A DNA stretch of 16,151 nt from Rhodospirillaceae bacterium (GTDB lineage Bacteria > Pseudomonadota > Alphaproteobacteria > MPNO01 > UBA2964): NCBI GenBank assembly GCA_018660305.1, contig JABJKO010000135.1:1-16151 (forward strand), given 5' to 3'. Shown piece by piece: positions 598 to 10,612 of the stretch; the stretch's first letter is position 1; each line of letters starts with the position of its first letter. The position numbers were made by a program, and so were the translations under genes. The notes beneath the pieces were generated by a model that was not told the DNA's origin, did not search any database, and worked only from the letters and a program-made list of their open reading frames with translations.

Positions 598-1719
598 ATG
601 CATATTCTTTTTGATCCGGATACCGACAAACTGGTCCTGAAATGCGCCAATTTGCAGGAGACCGACCGGCTTCGTGATCTATTTGGCATCGAGGACACAT
701 CAATTGATGGCTGCATCGCCATCACCATGGAAAACTTCCTGAAAAGCGGGCAAAACCAGTTAATCAACGTCGAGAACCGGGACGTGGGGGAACTGGCCCC
801 CCTTGTGCATATTCAGTCCCCCTTGATGGGTTCGGCGCGGTTTAATCCCGGTCGAAATTTTATCTGCGAGAAATTGGGCGTAGGTTCAGTTGAATTTAGC
901 GCCCAACGTCACGCCCTCAACGGTAACGGCTTTATTCACCGCTTGCTGGAAACGGCGAATTTGGCTGAGCGGCTTGAGATTTATGACGAACTGCAACGCT
1001 ATATCGCCATGGACACATTCAGATTATTCAGCGAATTCAATTGGTTGAAGGCCGATTGTCTCTGCCTCGATATCCATCTGCCCATGTTGCTGCGATATTT
1101 CGACTACCAACTGAAGGACGCCAAAATTATCTTCCTGTTCCGCGATCCGCGGGATTGGATGGTCAGTGTTTACCATTTCTATCGCCATTTATACTTGGAT
1201 TTGGATAACGAGGCCCTGCATACCCATCATCCGGGCTTGTTTCGCCCGGACGGCGATGATTTGGATAATTTTCTTAAGCTATTGATAGATGGAGAGTTTT
1301 TCCACCAGTTCGCGACCGGATTTTATGTTTTCCCCTCGGTCAGGGATTTGTTGGAAGACCGGATTGCCTACAGCCACCACAGGAATGTTTTCTTCGTCGA
1401 CTACGAAAAAGCCAGACTTGATCCGGTCCCCCTCTATTCCGATTTCGCCAAATGGATCGCCGGCACGGTTGAGTTGCCCGCGCAAATTTCCCAGGCGGAT
1501 CTGGTTCAGGCCGGCGAATTGGGTAGTTTCCAACAACAAACCGGCGGCCAGTTGTCCGAGGGCGATAGCGAAAAAGTGCAGAACATCGGCGGTTGGGTAC
1601 GCAAGGGCGTGCCGGGAGACTGGAAAACGCATTTTTCGCCGGAAATTAAACGATATTTCAAGATTCAGACCGGTACACTCATGGTTGATGCAGGATACGA
1701 AGACGACATGGATTGGTAA
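598..1719 (+). CDS. Sulfotransferase-fold protein with degenerate 5'-phosphosulfate loop
   Basis: Probable transfer of a sulfo group (or similar) from a 3'-phosphonucleotide donor; acceptor unknown; predicted cytosolic, with no signal peptide or membrane segment. Of 373 residues, the C-terminal two thirds show the PAPS sulfotransferase landmarks. The 3'-phosphate strand/helix is RDPRDWMVSVYHF (182-194, with R182 and S190 as the expected phosphate ligands). The RKGxxGDWK motif is at 335-343, followed by the usual HF and a C-terminal GYE..W. The normal N-terminal loop (PKSGTTW in SULTs) is not recognisable. The best alignments are SPLMGSARF (74-82), with Leu in place of Lys, or NPGRNF (83-88). 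The first 65 or so residues look like an extra N-terminal segment. Its 3' end overlaps the CysC-like kinase gene, which argues for coupled expression. No strong ribosome site precedes ATG 598. The sequence is visibly AT-richer than downstream genes. The fold is likely; sulfotransfer itself is less sure. Confidence 0.82.
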   Translation: MHILFDPDTDKLVLKCANLQETDRLRDLFGIEDTSIDGCIAITMENFLKSGQNQLINVENRDVGELAPLVHIQSPLMGSARFNPGRNFICEKLGVGSVEFSAQRHALNGNGFIHRLLETANLAERLEIYDELQRYIAMDTFRLFSEFNWLKADCLCLDIHLPMLLRYFDYQLKDAKIIFLFRDPRDWMVSVYHFYRHLYLDLDNEALHTHHPGLFRPDGDDLDNFLKLLIDGEFFHQFATGFYVFPSVRDLLEDRIAYSHHRNVFFVDYEKARLDPVPLYSDFAKWIAGTVELPAQISQADLVQAGELGSFQQQTGGQLSEGDSEKVQNIGGWVRKGVPGDWKTHFSPEIKRYFKIQTGTLMVDAGYEDDMDW

Positions 1720-2302
1720 TCCGGCCGCAGGGAACGTCCCCAGCGGTGGTATTGTCTATTGGATTACCGGGCTGTCCGGCGCGGGCAAAACGACCCTCGC
1801 CGCCGCGCTGACCCAAAAACTGCAGTTGGGCAAGAATAAAGTCGTCCACTTCGACGGCGATCAACTCAGGGCCATATTCCGTATGACGGACGTGCATGAC
1901 CCGGCTGCCCGTCTCGACCTGGCCTTTCGTTATGCCCGGCTGTGTCAGACAGTGGCGGTGCAAGGTGTCGATGTGGTCTGCTCCACCATCTCGCTTTTCC
2001 CGGAAATCCATCAGTGGAACCGCGAAAACAATCCCCGTTACGCCGAGATATATCTGAAAGTGTCTATGGATGTTCTCAAGGCCCGGGACGACAAATTCAT
2101 TTACGCCCGCGCCATGACGGGAGAGATTTCCAATGTGGTCGGCATTGATATCCCCTTGGTCGAACCGGCCGCTCCCGACCTGATTATCGAGAACGATGGC
2201 CGATACCGGCCCGAACAGGCAGCCGAACTGATCCTGCGTCATTTCACGGCTGAACAGGCACGTGACAATCCACGATCAGCCAGATTATCAGGCGCACAAT
2301 GA
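1688..2302 (+). CDS. CysC-like nucleotide 3'-kinase (adenylylsulfate kinase family, atypical)
   Basis: P-loop kinase of the APS kinase family, which phosphorylates the ribose 3'-OH of a 5'-activated nucleotide. Of 204 residues, Walker A is GLSGAGKTT (28-36), DGDQLR is at 56-61, and the lid segment runs from 131 to 160 with GEISNVVGIDIP. Canonical APS contacts differ. DGDN is DGDQ. The LGFS phenylalanine region is TDVHD. FISPYR/H is TISLFPE. NFTGID is NVVGID. I recall similar SxFPE..NR and NVVGxDI features in the Campylobacter cytidine diphosphoramidate kinase clade, so the substrate may not be APS. There is no fused ATP sulfurylase. The start is ATG 1688, inside the end of the sulfotransferase gene (about 32-bp overlap). 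Its ribosome site is weak, so translational coupling is likely. The open frame extends far upstream, but that part is the overlapping gene read out of frame. The family is sure, the substrate open. Confidence 0.85.
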   Translation: MQDTKTTWIGNPAAGNVPSGGIVYWITGLSGAGKTTLAAALTQKLQLGKNKVVHFDGDQLRAIFRMTDVHDPAARLDLAFRYARLCQTVAVQGVDVVCSTISLFPEIHQWNRENNPRYAEIYLKVSMDVLKARDDKFIYARAMTGEISNVVGIDIPLVEPAAPDLIIENDGRYRPEQAAELILRHFTAEQARDNPRSARLSGAQ

Positions 2303-2358: not shown

Positions 2359-3135
2359 ATGAACATCATGAAACCAGGTGATTTTTCCAATCTCGCCGAT
2401 GACTACGCCAGCTTCCGCCCCGGCTATGCCAGGGATGTGTGCCGCGCCGCGCTGGCCCTGCCGAATGCGCCGGCGGGCAAACTTGACGTCGCCGACGTTG
2501 GCGCCGGCACGGGGATCTGGACCCGCACACTGCATGCCATGGGATGTCACAAGCTGACGGCGGTGGAGCCGAACGAGGCCATGCGCGCCCAAGGTGTCCG
2601 GCAATCAGAGGGTCTGTCCATCAACTGGAAAAGCGGCAGCGGTGAAGACACTACCCTGCCCACCGCCTCCCAGGACGTCTTGACCATGGCTTCCTCCTTT
2701 CACTGGCCGGACGAGGCGGCGGCCATGTCTGAATTTCACCGTGTGCTGCGCCCGGGCGGATGGTTCGCGGCGCTATGGAATACCCGGTATATCGAAGCCA
2801 GCCCTCTGTTGGTGGAGATCGAGGCGGAATTGCATAATATTGTCCCGGATCTGAACCGGGTTTCCTCTGGTCGGTCCGAATTTACCGCTGGGTTAACGTC
2901 GCGCCTTCTGGCAGCGCAAGGCTGGGGCGCGCCGGTCTATATTGAGGGCTACCACACCGAACGCATGAGCCGGGCGCGGTATCTCGGCATTTGGCGCTCG
3001 GTCAACGATGTCCAGCAACAGGCCGGCCCGGAGCGTTTTCAGCGCTTCCTCGACTATATTGAAGACCGCCTTTCCGACCATGACGAGGTCGATGCCGTCT
3101 ACCAGACCCGCCTCTGGGCTGTCCAAAGCATCTAG
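2359..3135 (+). CDS. Class I SAM-dependent methyltransferase
   Basis: Methyl transfer from S-adenosylmethionine; acceptor unknown. Of 258 residues, motif I is VADVGAGTG (44-52), an acidic ribose ligand sits in AVEPN (E70), a SSFHWPD segment near 111-117 is typical of the Methyltransf_11 / trans-aconitate-methyltransferase-like group, and HRVLRPGG precedes the WFAALWN strand. ATG 2359 has a GTAGGG ribosome site 5-6 bases upstream; ATG 2368 is an in-frame alternative. It lies 56 bp after the kinase in the same direction, so it is probably in the same transcript and may act on the same product. Its TAG stop falls exactly in the left end of the palindromic element that follows. The C-terminus (YQTRLWAVQSI) still resembles relatives, so at most a few residues were replaced. 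Confidence 0.9.
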   Translation: MNIMKPGDFSNLADDYASFRPGYARDVCRAALALPNAPAGKLDVADVGAGTGIWTRTLHAMGCHKLTAVEPNEAMRAQGVRQSEGLSINWKSGSGEDTTLPTASQDVLTMASSFHWPDEAAAMSEFHRVLRPGGWFAALWNTRYIEASPLLVEIEAELHNIVPDLNRVSSGRSEFTAGLTSRLLAAQGWGAPVYIEGYHTERMSRARYLGIWRSVNDVQQQAGPERFQRFLDYIEDRLSDHDEVDAVYQTRLWAVQSI

Positions 3136-3185
3136 CAAGCTGCTGAAAATGTCGGATATTTCGTCGAAAACGGGCTGAAACGGTC

Positions 3186-3205
3186 ACTCCCGCGAAAGCG
3201 GGAGT
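3186..3205 (+). repeat. REP-type hairpin, copy 1 (GAAA tetraloop)
   Basis: Perfect 8-bp stem ACTCCCGC / GCGGGAGT closed by a GAAA tetraloop, a GNRA-type loop that is very stable as RNA. It lies in opposite orientation to copy 2, so the two copies could also pair with each other into a longer cruciform. Confidence 0.9.
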
Positions 3206-3269
3206 CCATGCCTGAATTTTCAACATCTCTCAAGTCATTGAAATGCAGGTGTCTTTAGACTCAGTGTGG

Positions 3270-3289
3270 ATTCCCGCTTTCGCGGGAAT
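3270..3289 (-). repeat. REP-type hairpin, copy 2 (inverted)
   Basis: Perfect 8-bp stem ATTCCCGC / GCGGGAAT. Read on the minus strand the loop is GAAA, as in copy 1, and the flanks GTCA and TCCA match copy 1 too. The one stem difference, A/T for C/G at the second position, is compensated on both sides, which supports selection for the stem. Confidence 0.9.
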
Positions 3290-3343
3290 GACAACAAGAA
3301 TCGAAATCGACAATCTTGAAATCGTTTTTCAGCAAGCTGTTAG

Positions 3344-6520: not shown

Positions 6521-9500
6521 ATGGCGTCTCCTGACCTGTATGAATTAGCGAGCCAGATTAAGTCACTCAGATCCGAAGTTGGTATCACGGAACGCAGTGT
6601 GCGTGAACGCGACCGTCTCATTGATGTGCTCATGGAAAAAGCACAACGGCTCGAGACGCCGCGCGACAGCGACAATCATTTCCGGGAGCTGGTGGAGAGC
6701 TCGCTTCAGGGCGTATCGATCCTTGATCAATCCCAGCGATACTTCGCCAATCGTGCATATGTGGAAATGCTCGGATACGATTCCGTGGAAGAATTAATGG
6801 AAAAGGTGGTGGCCATAGACGTATTTCCCCCCTATGAGCGTGATCGCGTTCGAGAACGATTGGGTCAACGGCTGACTTCCGGTGGTCAGGCGGAGCCGTT
6901 CGAGGCTGATATGGTCCGCCGGGATGGATCAATCGTCACTGCCCTGATCATGGGCCGGCGTATCGAGTGGCACGGCAAACCGGCCATTCTTTCCACCTTC
7001 GTGGATGTTACCGAACGCACGCAGGCCGAAGAGGCCCTGAAGCGGAGTGAAGAGCGTCTTCGGGCATTGATCGAGAACGCCCTCGATACCATCACGATCG
7101 TCGGCACGGACGGTACGATCCTGTTTGAAAGCCCATCGGTGGAAAGGGTGCTGGGCTACAAACCGGAAGAGCTTGTCGGCCGCAAGGTGTTTGATTTTCT
7201 GCATTCCGATGACGTCCAGGCAGCCATCGAGGCGCTTCTTCGCGCGCCAGAAACACCCGCCCGCGTGAGAGAGATTGTATTGCGGACCCGCCACAAGGAT
7301 GGGTCATGGCGACATTTGCAGGCGATTGGGAGGAACCTTTCGAACAATCCTTCGGTTGGGGGCATCGTCCTCAATTCCCGCGACATCACGGAACGTGTCG
7401 CGGCGGAAACGCAGCTGCGAAGTGAACGGGACCTGTTTGCCAGACAGGTAACAATCATGACCGATCTGGCAACCCGGAACTTGTTTGAACTGGGTTTGCA
7501 GGCGGCGTACCGGACCATCACGGAACAGGCGAGCGCGGCATTGCTGGTGGAGCGGGTCAGCGTCTGGCTCTATGGGGCGTCCGGTGATGAAGTGGAGTGC
7601 GTCGATCTCTACGTCAAAAGCACCGGAAATCATGCAAGTGGGGAGCGGTTAAATCGTAGCCGGGAGGTCTTCGAAAGAGAGATTGAGGAGCGTATCATCG
7701 CCATAGACGATGTTGCCACCGACGAGCGGGCCGCCGATTTACGGTCTCAGGTATATGAGCCACGCGGCATCGGTGCCATTCTCGATGCGTCGATATGGTC
7801 GGAAGGCGCCTGCCTGGGCTGGCTGACCCTGTGCCATGTTGGCGGCACGCGCGAGTGGTCGGTCGCCGAGCAGGGAATAGCCATCGCACTGGCGAGCTAT
7901 TGCGCCCGGATCGTCGAGAATGAGGAGCGGCGAAAGACCGAGCAGGCCTTGCGTGAAAGCGAGCTGAATTTTCGTTCCATCGCTGAAGGTTCGCCCGTTC
8001 CGCTGCTGATTACGCGGCTCACCGACGGCATAATTCTATACGCCAATCCCAGCGTCGGCCCGGTGCTTGGCCTTGCGATCGAGGCGTTGGTGGGTCGTAA
8101 TGTCGCGGATTTTGTATGGCATCGATATGAACGTGAAGATCGAATGGCGCGGTTCGAAGCCAATGGTTTCATCTCCGATGAAGTGCTCGAGATGCGCCGG
8201 GCCGATGGGGAGCACATTTCAACCGTACATTCGCTGCAGAGCATCAATTATGCGGGTGAGAGGGCGCTTCTTGGCAGCTTCCAGGACGTAACAGAGAGCA
8301 AGAAAGCTGAACAGGCCTTACGGGAAAGCCAACGCAATCTGGCCGAAGCGCAACGCATTGGCCATATTGGCCACTGGCGGGTCAACACCACATCCGGCCT
8401 GGCCGACTGGTCACCTGAAATGCACGAAATCTGGGGTCTTGTTCCGAGCGATACGCCGGTGACGCTTGACACAATATTAAACGCGATTCATCCCGACGAT
8501 ATTTCCGACGTTGTTGCCGCTCGGGACACCGCCGTGGCCGAAAATCAACCGTATGGGCTTGAGTTCCGGATTGTCAGATCGAACGGCGAAATCAGGCATG
8601 TCCGCAATGAAGGTCGGCCGGAATTTGATGCCGAGCACAATTTGGTATCTGTCTTTGGAATTTCCCAGGATATCACGGAACGAAAAAAAGCCGAAAATGC
8701 GTTGCGGCAAAGCGAAGCACGGTTTCGCGACTATGCCGAAGCGGCTTCGGACTGGTTCTGGGAATTCGATGCGGAGCGCAGGTTCACATATGTATCCGAC
8801 CGGTTCTACGAGATTACCGGTGGTAGCCCGGGCGGTGTTGTTGGTAAGACGGCCGCGGAACAGCATCAGATCTATGAAACGCCGGAAAGCGGTATCGGTA
8901 TTGACGTTGCCATTGCCAACCGCCTGCCCTTCAGGGATATCGTCTCGTCCCGAATACTCGACAATGGGCGCAAATGCTGGATACGTTCCGGCGGCATCCC
9001 AATTTTTGAAGGCGATGGAAGTCTTGTTGGCTATCGTGGTGTCAGCACGGACATCACGGAGGAGGTCGAAGCCCGAGGAGCGGCCGAACAGGCAGACCGC
9101 CGATTTTTCAATTCTTTGGATAACATGCCCGACCATGTCTGCCTTTACGACAGCGAAGATTGCCTGGTTTATTCGAACGGTGTAGCCCGTCAGCATCGGA
9201 TAAGCCTTTATGGGCGCGATTTTCTCGGCGAGACGTTCGAGGCGTTCTGTCGCGCCACGATTACTCACGGCCACGTGCCGGAGGCAGAGGGCCGCGAAGA
9301 GCAATGGCTGCGGGAACGCATTCAGCAACATCGCCAGCCGCGAGCCGCCTTTAGGGTGCATGGCCGGGGCGAAACAGATTACTGGCATGAAATTCGCGAG
9401 CACCGCACGCCCGACGGCGGCACGCTTGTCACATGGGTCAATATCACGGAGTCCGTCGTTCAGGAGCAGCAGTTGCGTCAGGCGCAAAAGATGGAGGCCG

Positions 9501-10612
9501 TTGGCCAATTAACCGGCGGCGTGGCGCACGATTTCAATAATGTACTTGCGATCATTCAAGGCAATTTGGAACTGCTGCATCGCAAACTCGGGGACGATGA
9601 CGTCGTCGACAGCCACTTAAAACCGGCGCTCAGAGCGACGGACCGAGGCGCTGCGTTGACCCACCGCTTATTGGCCTTCGCACGCAAGCAGACCCTGGAT
9701 GTCCAGGACGTTGACATCGGGGCGTTATTGCTCGGCATGGACGACATGTTACGGCGCACCCTGGGCGAAACCATCGATATCAAAGTGGATAATGCGGCGA
9801 CGCCGTGGTTGTGCGCCATTGATCCCGGGCAGTTGGAACAGGCGGTGTTAAATCTGGCGGTCAATGCCCGCGACGCCATGCCCAACGGCGGACGTTTGAC
9901 CATTGAAACTTCGAACGCCCAGATTGACGAGTCCTACGCGGCGGAAAATTTGGAAGTTGAACCCGGCGAGTATGTGATACTTGCCGTCAGCGATAGCGGC
10001 ACTGGAATGTCGCGGGACGTTCAGGCGCAAATCTTCGATCCCTTTTTTACCACCAAGGAAGTTGGCAAAGGCACCGGTCTGGGTCTCAGTATGGTATTCG
10101 GCTTTGTCAAACAGTCCGGCGGACATGTGGCTGTCTACAGCGAATTGGGCCAGGGCACGACCTTTCGTCTCTATCTGCCAAGGTCGCGGGCGGCGGCGGC
10201 CTCGCCCCTGACGACCGTCGCGCCGGAAACAGCGATGGGCAAGCCGGGAGAAACCATCCTGGCGGTGGAAGACGACGCCGGTTTGCGGGAGTTGATTGAG
10301 GACATGCTGCAAGATCTGGGATATGCGGTCATTGTCGCCGGGACAGGTCGGTTAGCGCTGGATATCTTATCAACCACGCCCCGAGTCGATCTGTTGCTAA
10401 CCGATGTGGTTCTGCCCGGCGGCGTTTCCGGTCCGGAGCTGGCGCAAGCAGCCCTTCGGGAGAGGGCGGATCTGAAGGTCCTTTATATGTCCGGATATAC
10501 GCAAGACGCCATTGCCCGCCACGGCCGCCTGGACCCGGACTTGGAGCTTTTGACGAAACCCTTCACATTGAAAGACTTCGGCCGCAAGCTACGAGAGGTC
10601 CTGGACGGTTAG
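6521..10612 (+). CDS. Soluble multi-PAS/GAF hybrid sensor histidine kinase with receiver
   Basis: Autophosphorylating sensor kinase, 1363 residues, with no membrane segment, so it senses cytoplasmic signals. Approximate order: short coiled coil (10-48), PAS1 52-168, PAS2 178-294, GAF 305-470, PAS3 480-594, PAS4 605-722, PAS5 733-849, PAS6 860-978, HisKA with GGVAHDFNN (phospho-His1003), HATPase with N box N1115, DSGTG at 1158-1162, FDPFFTTK 1172-1179 and GKGTGLGL 1182-1189, then a receiver (1243-1360) with E1250/D1251/D1252, phospho-acceptor D1295 and K1346. Each PAS domain ends in a D/N-[IV]-T-E linker (residues 162, 288, 589, 717, 844, 974), a sign of internal duplication. All catalytic residues are present, so it should be active. 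No partner regulator or Hpt gene is nearby. ATG 6521 has a weak TTGGGA site. The receiver implies relay to an unlinked phosphotransferase, or autoregulation. Confidence 0.96.

Follow-up and report, generated by a model that had tools for sequence, protein, structure and literature searches.

A sulfotransferase-fold protein and a CysC-like kinase with overlapping genes in a Rhodospirillaceae bacterium: a candidate module for phosphoramidate transfer

A stretch of 16,151 bp from the genome of a Rhodospirillaceae bacterium (contig JABJKO010000135.1; hereafter the window) raises the question of which donor is shared by a sulfotransferase-fold (ST) protein and the kinase whose gene interlocks with its own. 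On the forward strand, the ST gene (598..1719, 373 aa) runs into the gene of a kinase resembling CysC, the adenosine 5'-phosphosulfate (APS) kinase (1688..2302, 204 aa), and a gene for a methyltransferase dependent on S-adenosylmethionine (SAM; 2359..3135, 258 aa) starts 56 bp past the end of the kinase gene. The original prediction proposed that the kinase makes an unusual 3'-phosphonucleotide donor, whose 5' group is transferred by the ST-fold partner. This guess has gained support, as relatives of the kinase and the methyltransferase occur in cassettes of the Cj1415-Cj1418 type, known from capsule synthesis in Campylobacter jejuni, and the window's own genome has the remaining enzyme types of that pathway. 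We regard it as reasonably probable that the ST, the kinase and the methyltransferase form a module drawing on a pool of cytidine diphosphate (CDP)-phosphoramidate made elsewhere in the genome, with the ST-fold partner transferring phosphoramidate. The ST would then be a (methyl)phosphoramidate transferase, the kinase a CDP-phosphoramidate 3'-kinase, as proposed from its NF004041 score and its place in a tree, and the cassette-linked methyltransferase the supplier of the O-methyl group of methyl phosphoramidate.

The kinase and its separation from CysC

The Walker A motif of the kinase (GLSGAGKTT, 1769-1795, forward strand) is intact, as had been claimed, and the replaced segments were located as TDVHD at residues 67-71, STISLFPE at 99-106 and NVVG at 149-152. 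The phenylalanines of the CysC segments LGFS, FISPYR and NFTG, which we take to be APS contacts, correspond to H70, T100 and V150 in the window kinase. Similar losses were seen across 16 cassette-type kinases, 15 of which adjoin a glutamine kinase; the 16th is that of genome G362, where the contig ends and no glutamine kinase was found in the genome (genomes are given by our handles, G000 being that of the window). Phenylalanine occupies the LGFS position in 17/17 CysC sequences versus 3/16 cassette-type kinases, the FISPYR position in 15/17 versus 1/16, and the NFTG position in 17/17 versus 1/16. Further group-wide changes relative to CysC are A to N at 111 and F to Y at 118.

Profile scores and phylogeny point in the same direction. 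PF01583 (Pfam) matches the kinase, and its best NCBIfam model is NF004041 (PRK05541), with 183.8 bits for a cut-off of 127; the apsK equivalog TIGR00455 scores 100.7 bits, below its cut-off of 138.7. Cj1415 presumably belongs to the same PRK05541-type NF004041 subfamily, and three relatives of the window kinase (P0063, P0071 and P0125) carry the JGI name cytidine diphosphoramidate kinase. Over 17 genomes, PF01583 scores are bimodal: 17 matches reach 196-240 bits and, apart from fragments near the cut-off, the others fall at 75-125. The window kinase falls into the lower group at 94.9 bits, and contig C104 of its genome encodes a separate CysC with a high score (230 bits). A tree was built from 60 rows, leaving out L081, which contains an unreadable base, and 98 kinases of the 120 listed; in it, the 17 high-scoring CysC sequences stand on one side of a branch with 100/100 support, and the 43 others, including the window kinase, stand opposite. 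The window kinase groups with P0009-P0011 and, at 98/88, with the cassette kinase of G390. The proposed comparison with true CysC sequences thus placed the kinase outside their clade, and, given its clade, its score below the apsK cut-off and its residue changes, the reading as a true APS kinase was rejected.

The kinase likely starts at the ATG at 1688. A longer open reading frame from 1289 was rejected as a mere frame extension; the close relatives P0009 and P0010 begin with MQDT, like the product of the ATG at 1688.

Phosphoramidate cassettes and the window's own genome

Excerpts of two published sources describe Cj1415-Cj1418 as making CDP-phosphoramidate 3'-phosphate from glutamine, ATP and CTP (PMC11800397), and Cj1418 as an L-glutamine kinase earlier annotated as a phosphoenolpyruvate (PEP) synthase or pyruvate phosphate dikinase (PPDK) (PMC10971088). 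The cassette of G070 runs in the order kinase (171.4 bits with NF004041), NF004508 protein, PuuD-like protein and NTP_transf_3 protein. Its NF004508 protein scores 961 bits and contains PPDK_N and PEP-utilizer domains, the top PDB match of its hydrolase-type protein is the gamma-glutamyl-GABA hydrolase PuuD, and that of its NTP_transf_3 protein is a CTP:phosphocholine cytidylyltransferase (LicC-like). We infer that NF004508 represents the glutamine kinase family of Cj1418.

Counts of NF004508, the methyltransferase and the ST refer to class samples of 385 genomes, equal in size and handles. NF004508 was found in 18/385 genomes, in 17 of them above the cut-off. When 20 NF004508 genomes were read (these 18 together with G001 and G002), the kinase lay in the same fetched stretch in 16; the remaining four are G194, where the contig ends, G009, G361 and G202, the last of which has its kinase-methyltransferase pair on a contig other than that of NF004508. 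In the window's own genome, an NF004508 glutamine kinase (874 bits) lies on contig C300 beside a second kinase, and contig C223 carries a cytidylyltransferase (76% identity with its G006 counterpart) and, next to it, a hydrolase (74%). Judged by homology, this genome holds every enzyme type of the known pathway to CDP-phosphoramidate 3'-phosphate. Within the genus, 3 of 11 genomes (G000, G002 and G006) are ST-positive; among the seven tested for NF004508, it is present in these three as well as in G001 and G009, and G003 and G004 gave no match above the cut-off. The C300 genes are part of a second module (L035 8854-13833) in which consecutive genes encode a glutamine kinase, a kinase, an unassigned protein of 182 aa, a protein resembling formyltransferases and a further methyltransferase; G002 and G006 have the genes in identical order.

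Although Pfam describes the window methyltransferase as a generic SAM enzyme, it is 49-54% identical to the cassette methyltransferases of G070, G100, G141, G191 and G380. Its relatives at E 1e-20 occur in 12/385 class genomes, 10 of which are among the 18 with NF004508 (Fisher 1.6e-13). In 11 of these 12 genomes the methyltransferase shares one stretch with a cassette-type kinase, the exception being G239, of which 8 kb were read, and the same pairing is found in Azospirillum and on a deltaproteobacterial plasmid. This pairing with the kinase and with NF004508 genomes suggests that the enzyme methylates phosphoramidate or a precursor of it.

The sulfotransferase-fold partner

Two features of the ST claimed in the original prediction, the kept 3'-phosphate motifs and the missing PKSGTTW-type loop, are both present. 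RDPRD (1141..1155, forward strand, residues 182-186, with S190) and RKGVPGDWK (1600..1626, forward strand, residues 335-343) are what we take to be the 3'-phosphate-binding motifs. At the beta1-loop-alpha1 position, the site of the 5'-phosphosulfate loop PKSGTTW, the protein has GSARFNP (829..849, forward strand, residues 78-84), with neither the lysine nor the tryptophan of that loop. In an alignment of the window ST with 17 relatives, which omits the weak match P0007 (27% over 53%, with a canonical PKSGSH loop), G78, R81 and P84 are invariant in 18/18 sequences, giving GxxRxxP, and the 3'-phosphate motifs and a histidine are invariant or nearly so. This residue, His160, lies within IHLP (1072..1083, forward strand), presumably at the site of the catalytic histidine of cytosolic sulfotransferases. 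PF00685 (Pfam) covers the ST only at profile positions 72-244 of 255, leaving the part with the 5'-phosphosulfate loop unmatched, and the predicted fold matches sulfotransferases bound to 3'-phosphoadenosine 5'-phosphate (PAP). The rebuilt loop is not shared by the other ST-like loci of the genome that were read: four of five were read, and all four keep a [K/R]xG[T/S][T/S]-type loop.

The overlap between the ST and kinase genes, previously put at about 32 bp, is exactly 32 bp (1688..1719, forward strand). It was compared with 120 kinases (P0008-P0127, P0008 being the window's own) listed of 1132 matches, set against the C-termini of six ST relatives. Of these combinations, a single one, P0010 with P0001, could be encoded by a common stretch of DNA; this holds in the register of the window and over 11 codons, and the longest contig is 601,954 bp in both cases. 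Because these two ends are readable from one stretch in that register, the overlap is, on the evidence of the protein termini, conserved beyond chance. Additionally, an ST-clade gene and a kinase lie within one stretch in G070, G043 and G173, about 2.6 kb apart in the latter two. Absence of the pair from other genomes, which would have refuted the original prediction, was not what we saw: the overlap recurs in one further contig and the one-stretch pair in these three genomes, though the pairing is not universal. In G070, two copies of the ST-clade gene sit inside one cluster with the whole cassette, which also includes a glycosyltransferase of family 2 and several genes of epimerase type. The ST-clade gene of G043 (L016 7759-10642) shares 8 bases with a pyruvate-kinase-like gene, and on the far side of the kinase there is a gene for a PhyH-type oxygenase.

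Beyond this clade, a contig scan with one peptide pattern returned nine loci, of which L017-L022 are distant ST-like genes; a tblastn search of these six with the window kinase (E 1e-3) found no match, and they were left unused. In L018, L019 and L021 (Alkalihalobacillus; Bacillales), two distant ST-like genes face each other about 3 kb apart, with no kinase match nearby.

A statistical association between the ST and the pathway was also observed. ST-clade genes occur in six genomes of the class sample (G000, G006, G043, G070, G173 and G191), and NF004508 is present in 4/6 of these versus 14/379 others (Fisher 4.8e-5). When ST genes of any family were detected with Pfam and their loci counted by hand, 6 of the 20 fetched stretches around a glutamine kinase contained one (G070, G100, G136, G202, G209 and G222), against 0.25 expected under uniform placement (P ~1e-7), a generous null given the concentration of ST genes in glycan loci. 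ST and kinase genes are directly adjacent in G209, overlapping by 4 bases.

A further association comes from Azospirillum lipoferum 4B and A. ramasamyi, where the cassette kinase is part of a fusion with a probable ST-fold domain at the N-terminus and a long, unassigned middle region (L138 8810-11323; L145 8809-11346). The fused N-terminus matches a neighbour annotated as sulfotransferase family 2 (BLASTP E 1e-7), its motifs were read by eye, and PF03567 scores 16.2 bits for it and 18.6 for the annotated neighbour, both under the cut-off of 22; a PDB sequence search with this N-terminus returned no sulfotransferase. These weak signals make a Sulfotransfer_2-like domain probable for the 5' part of the fusion. 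Two more sulfotransferase-domain genes lie within 6 kb of the cassette in A. lipoferum. A search of the plasmids with the window ST at E 1e-5 gave no match.

Proposed mechanism, rival readings and known systems

From the observed gene content, homology, clade, loop change and linkage, a scheme can be proposed for the substrates, the transfer and its direction, the order of methylation and the acceptor. Glutamine would be N-phosphorylated by the C300 glutamine kinase, the C223 cytidylyltransferase would couple the phosphorylated glutamine to CMP, and the C223 hydrolase would cut off the glutamyl part to leave CDP-phosphoramidate. The window kinase would then phosphorylate its 3'-OH, and the window methyltransferase would add an O-methyl group before or after transfer. 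The ST-fold protein would bind the 3'-phosphate of the donor like other sulfotransferases; an acceptor, probably a surface glycan, would attack the outer phosphorus, and cytidine 3',5'-bisphosphate would leave, as PAP does in sulfation. The sulfate donor 3'-phosphoadenosine 5'-phosphosulfate (PAPS) is a nucleoside 3',5'-bisphosphate with a sulfuryl group, and 3'-phospho-CDP-phosphoramidate is the same with an amidophosphoryl group. Because the donor parallels PAPS in this way, an ST fold with the 3'-phosphate site and histidine kept and the 5' loop rebuilt would, on chemical grounds, suit it. Opinion is evenly balanced on a broader proposal, namely that the ST fold has been recruited, perhaps repeatedly, as a phosphoramidate transferase, that 3'-phospho-CDP-(methyl)phosphoramidate serves as a P-N analogue of PAPS, and that the 3'-phosphate exists because the fold reads it.

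Cassettes lacking the kinase bear on this last idea. Of 14 plasmid records with a glutamine kinase, 11 were fetched, seven being searched for the kinase and the rest assessed by annotation, with a Microvirga record without a gene table excluded. The kinase-less cassettes L140, L141, L143 and L148 (the last by annotation only) carry transferase genes of CDP-glycerol or CDP-alcohol type. A CDP-glycerol glycerophosphotransferase-type gene is annotated in Vibrio alfacsensis, a protein of this type occurs in Pseudohalocynthiibacter (PF04464 21.2 bits, just below the cut-off) and, as the same protein, in Roseovarius, and a CDP-alcohol phosphatidyltransferase occurs in Agrobacterium vitis and Allorhizobium S4; the kinase-less cassette of Cupriavidus has neither type annotated. 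Given that kinase-less cassettes mostly carry these transferase types, a 3'-phosphate made for ST-fold transferases fits this small and unclean sample. Counter-cases are the kinase-methyltransferase pair of G202, which has a neighbouring gene that matches PF04464 weakly (14.9 bits, below the cut-off), the Smac51 cassette, which has the kinase and two unassigned 413-aa proteins, and Azospirillum TSA2s, whose kinase adjoins a glycosyltransferase gene.

Several observations weigh against phosphoramidate transfer by the window module. The module and the other pathway genes of its genome lie on different contigs. The genomes behind the ST association are not independent, the six ST-positive class genomes amounting to three families, and 14/20 glutamine-kinase genomes have no Pfam-detected ST gene in the fetched stretch of 6-20 kb. 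In the tree, the 16 cassette-type kinases do not make up one clade (6 changes) but fall on several branches, interspersed with relatives lacking known context, so that the tree excludes CysC yet defines no phosphoramidate clade, and the G043 and G173 kinases form a separate branch. Both of these genomes have the ST and the kinase, and no glutamine kinase was found in either. The ST of G002, G006 and G191 occurs without a cassette-type kinase in the stretch read, the contigs of G006 and G191 being short, and in G002 the distance from the ST gene to a CysNC gene is about 5.5 kb. The ST-linked kinase of G173 is the sole strong PF01583 match of its genome and could act as an APS kinase there. Finally, a PF00884 sulfatase gene on the same strand ends about 350 bp upstream of the window (L034 14115-15728, equal to G000:C74 29114-30727). 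The points from G043, G173, G002 and the sulfatase are not decisive, though they leave some room for another cargo and for plain sulfation. Given G043 and G173 without a glutamine kinase, and the ST of G002, G006 and G191 without such a kinase near, the donor need not be phosphoramidate everywhere.

The alternative that survives best, though we consider it unlikely, is that the kinase 3'-phosphorylates another CDP-linked (or nucleotide-linked) group, which the ST-fold partner transfers. The G043 and G173 gene sets and the overlap with a pyruvate-kinase-like gene in G043 would agree with it, and cytidylyltransferases are, as general knowledge, able to activate many groups; however, glutamine kinase, hydrolase and cytidylyltransferase are all encoded in the window's own genome, and the window kinase and methyltransferase resemble cassette members and not the G043/G173 branch. 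Ordinary sulfation by a divergent pair, in which the kinase makes PAPS and the ST moves sulfate with a rebuilt loop, appears improbable. PF00685 and PF01583 membership, the predicted likeness to PAP-bound sulfotransferases, the upstream sulfatase, the CysNC neighbour in G002 and the lone strong match in G173 speak for it, but the genome has a separate high-scoring CysC, the kinase lacks phenylalanine at the APS-contact positions, the ST lacks the loop lysine and tryptophan, and the kinase and methyltransferase are tied to the phosphoramidate cassette. That the ST is inactive in transfer or the overlap accidental, with the kinase and methyltransferase alone modifying a donor for an unlinked transferase, is very improbable: kinase-methyltransferase pairs do occur without an ST-clade gene in the stretch (G191, G380, G100, G141, G202 and G362; that of G191 lies on another contig, and the G100 and G202 cassettes are near ST genes of other families), but the 18 aligned sequences show little or no variation in the 3'-phosphate motifs and the histidine, the gene overlap is conserved, and G070 has two ST-clade copies in its cluster.

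If the broader proposal of a recruited ST fold is right, a pathway thought special to Campylobacter would become a decoration system scattered among Pseudomonadota and equipped with a methyltransferase of its own. Phosphoramidate transfer by the module would also give the sulfotransferase fold a second chemistry. In environmental alphaproteobacteria, the kinase is now linked to a methyltransferase family and an ST-fold family, and cultured Azospirillum has related cassettes; why the 3'-phosphate is made, and which proteins are the transferase and the methylase, thereby become directly testable questions. Cj1419 and Cj1420 are, on our assumption, predicted methyltransferases. In the published excerpts available, the steps to CDP-phosphoramidate 3'-phosphate in C. 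jejuni are established, the transferases Cj1421 and Cj1422 are known by knockouts, and Cj1419 and Cj1420 stand without an assignment (PMC11800397); an excerpt of a 2025 paper names the methyl phosphoramidate decoration as future work (PMC12409886), and that of a review terms the glutamine kinase C. jejuni-specific (PMC9561416). Literature searches found no text joining phosphoramidate, sulfotransferase and capsular polysaccharide, and none joining diphosphoramidate and adenylylsulfate kinase; subscription papers were mostly outside the scope of both, so novelty is unproven.

Around the module, a short-chain dehydrogenase gene on the opposite strand lies between the upstream sulfatase gene and the window. 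An inverted repeat with 26-nt arms, 92% complementarity and a 58-nt spacer is located at 3183-3292, just downstream of the methyltransferase gene, and a scan for promoters and terminators gave no signal clearly over the shuffled expectation. Positions 6521-10612 encode a hybrid histidine kinase of 1363 aa with many PAS domains, a GAF domain and a receiver domain. A reading as a defence system was rejected, PADLOC matches being weak and partial: the kinase reached 19.4 bits with mad8 and the methyltransferase 46 bits with mad2, and the ST had no match.

Among known systems, the window system can be compared with the C. jejuni pathway to O-methyl phosphoramidate (MeOPN; Cj1415-Cj1418, with the transferases Cj1421/Cj1422). 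The window's own genome has the same kinase, glutamine kinase, hydrolase and cytidylyltransferase types, and its system also has an associated methyltransferase; it differs in that the host is an alphaproteobacterium, the genes lie on three contigs and the proposed transferase has an ST fold. With CysC (PF01583), the window kinase shares the P-loop kinase family, Walker A and the DGD and RDxK segments, but it stands outside the CysC clade and under the apsK cut-off, with the APS-contact phenylalanine positions replaced. Compared with the cytosolic sulfotransferases (SULT, PF00685), the ST has GSARFNP in place of PKSGTTW and its profile match is confined to 72-244 of 255. On plasmid AZO_p6 of A. 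lipoferum 4B, the comparable cassette has consecutive genes for the kinase, methyltransferase, PEP-utilizing enzyme, hydrolase and cytidylyltransferase, and a gene with a sulfotransferase domain is close; there, however, the kinase is fused to the probable Sulfotransfer_2-like N-terminal domain, and the plasmid search found no ST of the window clade.

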